NCBI RefSeq assembly: GCF_024171735.1
Contig: NZ_JAMTCH010000004.1
Span: forward strand, 62,001-126,000
Source: Prauserella alba
GTDB lineage: Bacteria > Actinomycetota > Actinomycetes > Mycobacteriales > Pseudonocardiaceae
Direction: 5' to 3'
Length of the DNA stretch: 64,000 bases
Part shown: piece by piece, positions 7,180-41,405 of the stretch
Numbering within the stretch: the stretch's first letter is position 1
How the letters are laid out: each line of letters begins with the position of its first letter
Program-made: the position numbers and the translations under genes
Notes under the pieces: model-generated
Told to the model about the DNA's origin: nothing
Database searches by the model: none
What the model saw: only the letters and a program-made list of their open reading frames with translations

Positions 7180-8442
7180 ATGCGGATCGCGTACACACCG
7201 GAGCACGACCGGCTCCGTGACGAGCTCCGCGCGTACTTCGCGACGCTCATGACGCCGGAACGGCGCGCCGGGCTCCGCACGGGCGGCGACGTCGTCCATC
7301 CTCCCGCCAATGAGGGCGTAGCCGGCGGGAATGGGGGTCCCCCCGCCAATGAGGGCGTAGCCGGCGGGGGAGAGTACGGCGACGGCGTCGCGTACAAGGA
7401 GATCGTGCGACAGCTGGGCGAGGACGGCTGGCTGGCGCTCGGCTGGCCGGAGGAGTACGGCGGGCAGGCGCGGTCGATGCTCGACCAGCTGATCTTCACC
7501 GACGAAGCGGCGATCGCGGGCGTCCCGGTGCCGTTCCTGACGATCAACACGATCGGCCCGACCATCATGCGGTACGGCACTCCTGAGCAGAAGGAGTACT
7601 TCCTGCCGCGCATCGCGAGCGGGCGCCTCCACTTCGCGATCGGTTACTCCGAGCCCGACGCGGGCACCGACCTCGCCGCGCTGCGGACCCGCGCGGTGCG
7701 GGACGGCGACGAGTACGTCGTCAACGGCCAGAAGATGTGGACCAGTCTCATCGAGTACGCCGACTACGTGTGGCTCGCCGCGCGCACCGACCCTGACGCC
7801 AAGCGTCACAAGGGGATCAGCGTGCTGGCCGTGCCGACGTCGGCCGAGGGCTTCTCGTGGACGAAGGTCCACACCGTCGCCGGTCCCGGCACGAGCGCGA
7901 CGTACTACTCGGACGTGCGCGTACCCGTTTCCTCCCGGATCGCCGAGGAGAACGCGGGCTGGCCACTGATCACCAACCAGCTCAACCACGAACGCGTCGC
8001 GCTCACGTCGGCCGCTCCGCTGCGGGCGGCGCTCGACGAGGTCGTCACGTGGGCACGGGAGACCAAGCGGCCCGACGGGAGCCGAGTGATCGACGAGGCG
8101 TGGGTGCGGGCACACCTGGCGCGCGTGCACGCCCACGCCGACTACCTCAAACTGCGCAACTGGAAGATCGCCTCGACGGCCGACACCGGTGGGGTCGCGC
8201 CCGCCGACGCATCTGCGACGAAGGTGTTCGGCACGGAGCTGGCCACCGACGCCTACCGGCTGCTGCTCGAGGTACTGGGCGCGGGCGGGCTGGTCCGCGA
8301 GGGCAGTCCGGGTGCGGTGCTGCAGGGACGTATCGAACGCGCGCACCGCTCGGCACTGATCCTCACGTTCGGCGGCGGCACCAACGAGATCCAGCGGGAC
8401 ATCATCGGAGCGACCGCGCTCGGCCTTCCCGTGACCCGCTGA
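7180..8442 (+). CDS. fadE26: Acyl-CoA dehydrogenase FadE26 (ChsE4-like) with a repeat insertion
   Basis: A 420-residue acyl-CoA dehydrogenase. The N-terminus (RIAYTPEHDRLRDELRAYFATLMTPERR) and the segment WPEEYGGQARSMLDQLIFTDEAAIAG follow the FadE26/ChsE4 subfamily, which pairs with FadE27 in a heterotetramer that desaturates C26 sterol-CoA esters. FAD-binding segments include YSEPDAGTDLAALRTRA and GQKMWTS, and the C-terminal GGGTNEIQRDIIG is present. AGGAGG at 7169-7174 fixes the ATG. Residues about 41-64 hold two copies of a PPANEGVAGG peptide encoded by the tandem hairpin element at 7303-7370; in my recollection family members go directly from the TPERR helix to the GEYG segment. The insertion sits in an N-terminal loop and keeps the frame. 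Confidence 0.9.
   Translation: MRIAYTPEHDRLRDELRAYFATLMTPERRAGLRTGGDVVHPPANEGVAGGNGGPPANEGVAGGGEYGDGVAYKEIVRQLGEDGWLALGWPEEYGGQARSMLDQLIFTDEAAIAGVPVPFLTINTIGPTIMRYGTPEQKEYFLPRIASGRLHFAIGYSEPDAGTDLAALRTRAVRDGDEYVVNGQKMWTSLIEYADYVWLAARTDPDAKRHKGISVLAVPTSAEGFSWTKVHTVAGPGTSATYYSDVRVPVSSRIAEENAGWPLITNQLNHERVALTSAAPLRAALDEVVTWARETKRPDGSRVIDEAWVRAHLARVHAHADYLKLRNWKIASTADTGGVAPADASATKVFGTELATDAYRLLLEVLGAGGLVREGSPGAVLQGRIERAHRSALILTFGGGTNEIQRDIIGATALGLPVTR
7303..7370 (+). repeat. Tandem in-frame hairpin element, two copies
   Basis: Two copies, 39 bases apart, share the core AATGAGGGCGTAGCC. In the second copy (7333-7370) the core is a 15-base loop flanked by an 8-bp stem, CCCCCGCC at 7340-7347 and GGCGGGGG at 7363-7370, and preceded by GGGGGTCCCCC. 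The first copy (7303-7329) keeps a shorter stem. The open frame reads NEGVAGG; the other two forward frames contain TGA or TAG inside the core. A third copy is in valS. Confidence 0.9.
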
Positions 8443-38720: not shown

Positions 38721-41405
38721 TCAGGAGGCGGGAAGCGACTCCAGCCGAGCGGTGATGCGCTCGATGTCGGAGGCTGCCGTGTCACGGCGCACCCGGATCT
38801 TGTCGACCACGTCGGCAGGCGCCTTGTCGAGGAAGGCCTGGTTGCCCAGTTTGCCCTCGGTCTGCTTGAGCTCCTTCTCGGCGGCGGCCAGGTCCTTCTC
38901 CAGCCGCTTGCGTTCGGCCGCCACGTCGATCGTGCCCGAGGTGTCGACCTCGACCGTCGCGGTGCCGTCGGCCAGTGCGACCTCGATCGAGGCCGTGGCC
39001 GTGAACTCGTCGCCCGGCTCGGTCAGTTTCGCCAGCGAGCGGACTGCCTCCTCGTGCGCGGAGATGGCCTCGAAACCGGGGCCGGTCACCCGCGTGGCCA
39101 CCTTCTGGCCCGGCTTGAGGCCCTGGTCGGAACGGAACCGGCGCACCTCGGTGACGAGCTTCTGCACGTCGCCGATCCTGCCCTCCGCGGCCGAGTCGGC
39201 CGCGGGGAGCAGTTCGCCCGTCGGCCAGTCGGCCACGACCAGCGACGCTCCCCCTCCCCCACCGGCTACGCCCTCATTGGTGGGGGTACCCCCACCGGTC
39301 AGCGTCGTCCACAGCCGTTCGGTCACGAACGGGACGAACGGGTGCAGCAGCCGCAGCACCGTGTCCAGCGCGTGCCCGAGCACGGCACGGGTGTCGTCGG
39401 CCTTCTCGCCGGAGAGCTGCACCTTGGCCAGTTCGATGTACCAGTCGCACAACTCGCCCCACGTGAAGTGGTAAAGCGTGTTCGTGGCCTTGGCGAACTG
39501 GAACTCCTCGAGCAGTTCGTCCACCTCGGACAGCACCGTGGACAGCCGGCCGAGGATCCAGCGGTCGGCCTCGGTCATGTCCTCGACCGCGGGAAGCGGA
39601 CGCGCGGTGGTCGCACCGTTCATGATCGCGAACCGCGCCGCGTTCCACAGCTTCGTGCAGAAGTTCCGCGAACCGGCGGCCCAGTCCTCGGCCAGAGCCA
39701 TGTCCGTGCCGGGGTTGGCGCCGCGGGCGAGCGTGAACCGCGTGGCGTCGGCGCCGTAGTTGTCCATCCAGTCGATCGGGTCGAGGACGTTGCCCTTCGA
39801 CTTCGACATCTTCTTGCCGTGCTGATCGCGGATCAACCCGTGCAGGTAGATGTGCTGGAACGGCACGGACTGCTCGGCACCGCGTTCACGCATGCCGTGC
39901 AGGCCGAACATCATCATCCGCGCGACCCAGAAGAACAGGATGTCGTAGCCGGTCGACAGCACGGTCGTCGGATAGAACTTCGCCAGATCCGCGGTCTCGT
40001 CCGGCCAGCCCATCGTGGAGAACGGCCACAGGCCTGAGGAGAACCACGTGTCGAGCACGTCGGAGTCCTGGTACCAACCGTCACCCGACGGCGGCTGCTC
40101 GTCCGGGCCGACGCAGACCTTCTCCCCGTTCGGGCCGTACCAGACCGGAATCCGGTGCCCCCACCACAGCTGGCGCGAGATCGTCCAGTCGTGCATGTTG
40201 TCGACCCAGTCGAAGTAGCGCTTGGCCAGCTCCGGAGGGTGGATCTGCACCCGGCCGTCACGCACGGCGTCACTCGCGGCCTCGGCGAGCGGGCCGACCC
40301 TGACCCACCACTGCAGCGACAGCCGCGGCTCGATCACCGTGTCGCAACGCGAGCAGTGACCGACGGCGTGCACGTACGGCCGCTTCTCCGCGACGATCCG
40401 GCCGTCCTCGCGCAGCGCCGCCACGATCGCGGGGCGCGCCTCGAAGCGGTCCGTGCCTTCGAACGGGCCGGACGCGGTGATCACCCCGCGTTCGTCCATG
40501 ATCGACGGCATCGGCAGGTCGTGGCGCCTGCCGATCTCGAAGTCGTTCGGGTCGTGGGCAGGCGTCACCTTGACCGCGCCGGTGCCGAACTCGGGGTCGA
40601 CGTGCTCGTCGGCCACGATCGGGATGCGCCTGCCGGTGAGCGGCAGCTCGACCTCGGTGCCCACCAGGTGCCGGTAGCGCTCGTCGTCGGGGTGCACCGC
40701 GACGGCCGTGTCACCGAGCATCGTCTCCGCACGCGTCGTGGCGACGACGACCGACGCTTCGCCCTCGCCGTAGCGGATGGAGACCAGTTCGCCGTCGTCG
40801 TCGGAGTGGTCGACCTCGATGTCCGAGAGCGCGGTCATGCACCGCGGACACCAGTTGATGATGCGCTCGGCCTGGTAGATCAGCCCCTCGTCGTAGAGGA
40901 GCTTGAACATCGTCTGCACGGCACGCGAGAGGCCGTCGTCCATCGTGAAGCGTTCACGGGACCAGTCGATGCTCTCTCCGAGCCGCTTCATCTGGCCGAG
41001 GATCTTGCCCCCGTACTCGTGCTTCCATTCCCAGACGCGCTCGACGAACTTCTCGCGGCCGAGATCGTGGCGGGAGACGCCTTCCTTCGCCAGCTCCCGC
41101 TCGACGACGTTCTGCGTGGCGATACCGGCGTGGTCCATGCCGGGCAGCCACAGCACCTCGTAGCCCTGCATCCGCCTGCGCCTGCTCATGGCATCCATGA
41201 GTGTGTGGTTCAGGGCGTGGCCCATGTGCAGACTGCCGGTGACGTTCGGCGGCGGCAGTACGATGGAGAACGGCGGCTTGTCAGACGACGCGTCGGCGGT
41301 GAAGTAGCCCGCGTCTACCCAGCGCTGGTACAGGGCGGCCTCTTCGTCGGCCGGGTTCCATGCGGTGGGAAGGTCCGTGTGCTGCTGGTTCGCGTTCTCC
41401 GTCAC
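38721..41405 (-). CDS. valS: Valyl-tRNA synthetase with an in-frame repeat insertion
   Basis: An 894-residue class Ia synthetase that charges tRNA-Val. HIGH is present as HMGH in [14 protein letters not shown], and KMSKS as [13 protein letters not shown]. The CP1 editing domain (about 190-330), anticodon-binding domain and C-terminal coiled coil ([22 protein letters not shown]) are complete. About residues 703-720 hold a glycine-rich insert with the peptide NEGVAGG, coded by the same hairpin element as in fadE26, in a loop of the anticodon-binding domain. Mycobacterial ValS as I remember it is slightly shorter. Confidence 0.95.
39251..39298 (-). repeat. In-frame hairpin element, valS copy
   Basis: The plus strand has arms CCCCCACC (39256-39263) and GGTGGGGG (39279-39286) around the 15-base loop GGCTACGCCCTCATT, the exact complement of the fadE26 loop. 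Next to it, 39279-39296 is a perfect 18-bp palindrome. Compared with fadE26, one stem pair changes from G:C to A:T on both sides. It is read in the same frame (NEGVAGG). Confidence 0.9.

Follow-up and report, generated by a model that had tools for sequence, protein, structure and literature searches.

The Rickettsia palindromic elements (RPEs) described in PMC10969869 lie in frame within unrelated protein genes and encode a conserved peptide, and in-frame palindromic insertions are, by that account, best known from Rickettsia. Intragenic REPs are reported in PMC3733652 for several bacteria, tRNA synthetase genes included; the main text of that paper makes no mention of Streptomyces or Actinobacteria. 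Counts for three Actinomycetota species are given in the RepRanger report (PMC12306157), and passages of PMC8266576 state that recognition of REPs by TnpA depends on the GTAG motif to varying degrees. Here we describe a comparable family in culturable actinomycetes, with a copy in the valS gene of Prauserella alba; no description of it was found in the open-licence literature. Its features suggest, with a probability that we put at roughly 60%, a non-autonomous mobile element, some 40 nt long, that moves as a single-stranded hairpin and acts like the RPEs or the intragenic REPs.

The window, the whole 64,000-nt stretch of the P. alba genome that was analyzed, contains a copy of this dispersed element within valS. 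The features at this site are as follows.

38721-41405, minus strand: host gene valS, 894 aa (Pfam tRNA-synt_1 and Anticodon_1)
39254-39296, minus strand: valS element, 43 positions of the covariance model (model R1 match G000:C2:101254-101296:-, 72.2 bits)
39256-39294, minus strand: 39-nt unit TGGGGG...GGGGG, its length being the tandem period and the net gain at three empty sites
39256-39263, minus strand: stem arm, plus-strand reading CCCCCACC; on the coding strand the 3' arm GGTGGGGG
39264-39278, minus strand: 15-nt loop, coding strand AATGAGGGCGTAGCC, with an inner mini-hairpin GGC-GTA-GCC
39279-39286, minus strand: second stem arm, plus-strand reading GGTGGGGG; on the coding strand CCCCCACC
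39279-39296, no strand assigned: 18-bp palindrome GGTGGGGGTACCCCCACC, made up of the element's left G5 end and its C5 arm (family consensus G5-NN-C5)

The coding strand reads GGT GGG GGT ACC CCC ACC AAT GAG GGC GTA GCC GGT GGG GGA. The parts of the element follow each other in the order G5-NN-C5-loop-G5, both ends being G5 in direct orientation, and the consensus of the family is ART-GGGGG-NN-CCCCCRCC-ARTGRG-GGCGTAGCC-GGYGGGGG-AG. The element adds 39 nt, or 13 codons, encoding about SGG[T/A]P[A/T]NEGVAGG. In the valS product, the insert covers about residues 704-717, within the anticodon-binding domain (614-769) assigned by Pfam, a test that covered two genes of the window, valS and the acyl-CoA dehydrogenase gene. 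The arms CCCCCACC (39256-39263) and GGTGGGGG (39279-39286) enclose a 15-nt loop, as the initial annotation had proposed. It had also placed an 18-bp palindrome around GGTACC next to the element; the palindrome exists, but it forms the left end of the element itself. Taken by itself, the valS copy folds no better than shuffles do (z -0.66 as DNA, -0.02 as RNA), and the evidence for the putative hairpin is comparative, not energetic. An Rfam search with six loci gave no match to a described structured RNA up to E 0.1. An AlphaFold2 model of the valS product from seven sequences was poor (mean pLDDT 39.4), and no conclusion was drawn from it.

The 17-mer of the loop, GGCTACGCCCTCATTGG, has three exact matches in the window, at 39264 in valS and at 7307 and 7346 in an acyl-CoA dehydrogenase gene, which agrees with the earlier view of the valS hairpin as a third copy with an unchanged loop. 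There is no other exact occurrence in the 5.6-Mb genome (G000), where three further places have two mismatches. When up to three mismatches are allowed, the window contains four places against 0.24 expected in shuffles. With the covariance model, six units are detected in the genome as a whole. Besides the valS copy, these are a pair in the acyl-CoA dehydrogenase gene and, on a different contig, three units that have diverged. The features of the acyl-CoA dehydrogenase gene are as follows.

7180-8442, plus strand: host gene acyl-CoA dehydrogenase, 420 aa (Pfam)
7303-7329, plus strand: partial unit, in tandem with the full copy, period 39
7330-7372, plus strand: full copy in the acyl-CoA dehydrogenase gene, the fadE26 of the initial annotation (model match G000:C2:69330-69372:+; Pfam)

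The copies in the two genes lie on opposite genomic strands and in the same coding frame, as had been noted, and NEGVAGG is read in both. Rare codons are found in the element, including the single AAT of valS and all three AAT codons of the acyl-CoA dehydrogenase gene. The site in the latter gene is also filled in two other genera (G015 and G112), and it is empty in G001, G002, G133 and four Actinophytocola genomes.

A covariance model built from 14 copies matched 20 of 297 Pseudonocardiaceae genomes, in 6 of 46 genera, at E values up to 0.01; in Streptomyces, at E values up to 0.0001, it matched 17 of 295 genomes. Each carrier genome has 1-11 copies. A scan of genome contigs with a 20-letter pattern gave 70 stretches, 65 of them in actinobacterial records; the five found elsewhere (L163, L168, L185, L196, L201) are probably due to chance, and of these, L168 alone matched the model, with a weak score of 25.5 bits. 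No record in the plasmid and phage collections matched the subtype found in valS. Variants of the Streptomyces type were present in 14 plasmid records; the two of these that were examined are nearly unannotated, and the absence of features there is uninformative on coding.

In Haloechinothrix halophila (L149) and on five contigs of the Streptomyces genome G500 (C5, C9, C16, C27, C35), the contig or locus ends at the element or no more than about 90 bases away from it. Because sequencing gaps caused by the hairpin, or longer repeats, may end contigs at the element, draft genomes may under-count copies. In three further Streptomyces genomes (G561, G614, G692; L310-L316), several copies have a neighbouring copy no more than about 12 kb away, often one that is inversely oriented, as at 1895407- and 1902433+ in G614. 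With 5-7 copies in 8 Mb, this spacing looks closer than chance.

Covariation of the stem rested on a single pair in the set of 14 copies. A larger set of 101 distinct rows was gathered by the loop and the left tag, with the stem left free; L299, plainly a chance match, was left in. Standard pairs occupy 768 of the 808 outer-pair cells (mean 752.6 and maximum 761 in 500 shuffles), and 13 cells are double-changed, compared with a shuffled mean of 3.3 and a maximum of 9; relatedness among the rows, which are not independent, inflates the covariation counts. Nearly all double changes are held by pairs 16-36 (GC 64, GT 29, AT 6, AC 1, GG 1) and 17-35 (CG 88, GC 5, TA 1, others 7). The description of the element as dispersed, with a conserved loop and a covarying stem, is thus borne out. 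The reported exchange of A:T for G:C in the valS stem is real, and it is present in three congeneric valS genes (G000, G003, G004). As these form one clade of the valS gene tree, the exchange is probably a single change shared by descent.

The initial annotation had held that copies breaking the stem at random would speak against its reading, and this is partly the case. Among copies with at most two mismatches to the consensus, 51 of 52 are fully paired, but a pair is broken in 14 of the 18 copies with three or more mismatches; these rows came from a model favouring pairing. The stem is thus mostly broken in diverged copies, and it is not maintained after insertion. From this pattern, the stem seems to be selected at copying and not in place, and the hairpin seems to be conserved as the copied form rather than through a job in valS.

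Independent support for the hairpin comes from sister variants in Streptomyces, which were revealed by a pattern of the constant ends that does not itself require an inner stem. This pattern matched 7 of 198 genomes of the phylum. The variants keep the TGGGGGNNCCCCC and GGGGGAG ends, and their insides differ and are mostly self-complementary. Sister elements of this kind, alike at the ends but not in the inner hairpin, occur in four Streptomyces genomes (G446, G500, G479, G511; L114-L142) in up to 15 copies per genome, and some of the copies in G500 have longer common flanks, as if part of a longer repeat. In a further genus of Pseudonocardiaceae (genome G024), a shorter variant of 32 nt, GGTGGGGGTGCCCCCGCCGTGAGGTGGGGGAG, is present in three copies that resemble each other in the upstream flank (L077, L109, L110). 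Two near-complete units and a third, shortened one stand in a row before GWFHSGD in an acyl-CoA synthetase-like gene of G006 (L026, L091), an array that can be read as a loop growing by tandem addition. In a Streptomyces gene that we take to be FAD-monooxygenase-like, shortened inserts, NGGVAGGGG and SGGVAGGGG, are found where others have the full element (L170, L189), as if sequence had been lost between the left end and the similar start of the loop.

Empty sites exist in sister genomes. Seven congeneric valS genes were compared: the element is present in four (G000, G001, G003, G004) and absent from two, which read LTGGTSLVV (G005) and LTGRKSLVV (G006) at the site. These two do not encode NEGVAGG through other codons; had they done so, this would, according to the initial annotation, have been evidence against its reading. 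The valS gene of G002 has LTGAGSASAEGAGAAESLVV at the site, which seems to be the remnant of a decayed element. The alignment with the ValRS of T. thermophilus (1gax) shows a gap at this position. In the valS gene tree, G006 is placed beside the window's own gene, and G005 next to that pair, so that an early gain would require two losses, or one loss and a regain.

Filled and empty states were also compared in two genes that we take to be tsf and a GMC-oxidoreductase-like gene. In tsf, the empty GAC GGC GGC ACG (G009) corresponds to GAC [AGT ... GGG] GGA GGC ACC (G078); in the oxidoreductase gene, the empty GGC GAC GGC TCG (G109, G009) corresponds to GGC [AAT ... GGG] GGA GGT TCG (G078). The net gain is 39 nt in both genes and in the valS of G003 and G004 relative to G005 and G006, and the window's own valS copy has six extra bases (GGGGGA) after the element. 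The codon adjacent to the insert differs in every filled/empty comparison, so the exact ends of the element are approximate. No target-site duplication was assigned at valS, tsf or the oxidoreductase gene, and none was seen there outside the G5 tracts.

Loss of the element may have left traces. In the gene that we presume to be pgk, G006 has a full element where the window's own genome has TCC AGT GGG GGA GTC. At the same site, the sequence is GGC GGG GGA in G005, GAC GGG GGA in G001 and G003, and GAC GGC GCG in G004; G002 has no such sequence, three Actinophytocola genomes and A. arida have no GGGGGA, and G078 gave no match. Because AGT is rare in valS (four kinds of serine codon were counted, and AGT makes up 2 of the 40), the AGTGGGGGA in pgk of the window's genome looks like the left end of the element after a 33-nt loss between G5 tracts. 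We infer that it is probably the scar of a lost element, the alternative being a G5 target. Scar-like sequences are also seen in the acyl-CoA dehydrogenase gene of G004 (GGG AAC GGG GGA GAG) and in the oxidoreductase gene of G130 (GGC GGG GGA AGC).

Such states are as expected of recombination between G5 tracts. Together with the G5 tract at either end and the tandem arrays of period 39, they are consistent with a spread through replication template switching or gene conversion at GGGGG/GGCGG microhomology, for which no dedicated enzyme would be needed. However, the net gain is an identical 39 nt at three unrelated genes, the same codon is filled in several genera, and the inner stem covaries, which microhomology would not require. 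We therefore consider this explanation rather unlikely compared with a mobile hairpin.

The reading frame at the insertion sites was called from the GC content at codon positions. Sense phase 0 was uncontradicted for 47 of 62 copies from Pseudonocardiaceae and others, a set that includes L168 and a weak Actinokineospora match (L192), and for 21 of 32 Streptomyces copies of the valS type. Five of the latter 32 are antisense in both flanks, one of the five being a different repeat. Of the 24 Streptomyces sister variants, none has sense phase 0 on both sides. A second Streptomyces set has 37 copies, two of which were also in the first; 22 of the 37 are in sense phase 0, 11 are antisense, and two are in another sense phase in both flanks; the remaining copies in these counts are ambiguous, contradictory or at a contig edge. 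With 11 of 37 copies antisense, insertion in the sense direction is no rule. On its sense strand, the valS-type element has stops in the two other frames, and survival of in-frame copies thus explains much of the frame bias. It gives no account of the scarcity of antisense copies in Pseudonocardiaceae. Few Pseudonocardiaceae copies looked intergenic, although intergenic copies should be neutral, and this counts against the reading as a mobile element. In two copies of G001, the frame is broken by one missing C, which is perhaps a sequencing error.

When 136 copies, duplicates between collections included, were clustered by flanking protein, 69 clusters resulted, some of which are units of one tandem array; one nine-member cluster joins unrelated arrays solely via tandem flanks. 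The same sites are filled in different genera. The valS site is filled in the window's genus and Actinophytocola, and the oxidoreductase site in the window's genus, Actinophytocola and A. arida. A loop before Y-V-x-N-G in acyl-CoA dehydrogenase-like genes is filled in four genera. In acyl-CoA synthetase-like genes, a loop before G-W-L-H-T-G-D is filled in three genera, and the window's genus has separate copies there; outside the window, both gene labels are our assumption from the motifs. There are 110 same-site pairs with a flank identity below 0.85, and in 108 of them the elements resemble each other more closely than the flanks do (median identities 0.91 and 0.77); the pairs are not independent, and some loci are present in two collections. 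Copies at different sites have a median element identity of 0.86.

These shared sites, and the frame bias, would also follow if the insertions were old, had been kept by selection acting on either the encoded linker or a hairpin in the mRNA, and were later lost in some lineages; an early gain followed by two losses is as compatible with the valS gene tree as a regain is. This account is nevertheless improbable. The flanks have diverged to 0.77 while same-site elements are at 0.91, near the 0.86 between different sites; rare codons are kept, pairing is lost in diverged copies, and sister species live without the element. As far as the sequences indicate, repeated recent insertion fits better than old shared inheritance, because the elements are more alike than their flanks and keep codons that the host genes otherwise avoid.

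The initial annotation had expected recognition by an enzyme of the REP/RAYT kind. The element is a short hairpin, often imperfect and conserved between copies, as REPs are; it is dispersed and covarying, and intragenic REPs are on record in parts of PMC3733652. High copy number and a mostly extragenic position are further REP traits, in contrast to the 1-11 copies per genome found here and the 47 of 62 copies in sense phase 0 in coding flanks. Instead of the GT[AG]G of REPs, columns 7-10 at the foot of the hairpin read GGNN; a single one of 70 distinct copies has T at column 8. A search with PF01797 (Y1 transposase), for which an E. coli control was positive, gave matches in 5 of 20 carriers (4 of 16 with the valS type, 1 of 4 with sister variants) compared with 3 of 8 non-carriers. 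Scanning the 19 fetched Y1 loci for GGGGGNNCCCCC with up to one mismatch revealed no copy of the element; similar palindromes were present in a single locus. A RAYT as the mover is unsupported, with no Y1 gene beside the element in these loci. According to passages of PMC6006769, PF01797 covers class-2 TnpA only partly, so a divergent Y1 enzyme could have escaped the search. From the PF01797 search and the plasmid and phage collections, neither a moving enzyme nor an autonomous relative emerged, which also weighs against the reading as a mobile element. The REP/RAYT assignment does not hold on these results, and it is very improbable that the element is a genuine REP family that depends on a Y1 (RAYT) transposase for its movement.

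The favoured non-autonomous element would move as a single-stranded hairpin with the stem CCCCCRCC/GGYGGGGG, an asymmetric AATGAG bulge and the inner GGC-GTA-GCC hairpin, presumably through an enzyme acting in trans. Insertion would take place at G-rich positions, where empty relatives have Gly or Asp-Gly codons such as GAC GGC GGC or GGC GAC GGC, with a net addition of 39 nt. Only one of the three sense frames is free of stops, and it encodes a flexible linker of about SGGTPANEGVAGG; with a single such frame in gene-dense genomes, the surviving copies would be mostly in frame. After insertion, a copy would drift under coding constraint only, or disappear. Loss would probably occur via recombination between the two GGGGG tracts, leaving marks such as AGTGGGGGA. 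A broader possibility, which we put forward tentatively, is an undescribed actinomycete superfamily with constant ends (TGGGGGNNCCCCC ... GGGGGAG) and interchangeable inner hairpins, of which one subfamily is a 13-codon linker that is stop-free in one sense frame. It would repeatedly enter the same codons of essential enzymes in separate genera, and leave them with a scar, via a non-RAYT system. Empty sites, fresh copies, decayed copies and probable scars are found within one genus, so that gain and loss are directly testable, and the element shows a route for essential proteins to gain new loops.

Several known systems share part of these properties. Like MITEs, the actinomycete element is short, non-autonomous and dispersed, but it is far shorter, and neither terminal inverted repeats matching a known transposon nor a clear duplication of the target was seen at the sites compared. 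The ends of IS200/IS605 elements would be matched by a bulged hairpin in single-stranded form; in contrast to these, a Y1 gene is present in 5 of 20 carriers and adjoins the element in none of the 19 loci. The REPs of the GTAG and CGTC superfamilies are likewise hairpins of 20-40 nt, some of them within genes. The element differs from them in that it has no GTRG foot, few copies and often a coding position, and no matching Y1 gene was found. The nearest system in behaviour appears to be that of the RPEs, a likeness by description, and we do not call the element a member of the REPs, RPEs or MITEs. In-frame insertion into unrelated genes and a conserved encoded peptide are common to both. RPEs are about 150 bp long, whereas the actinomycete element is a 39-nt unit of high GC content that fills the same sites across genera and has sister variants with other inner hairpins.
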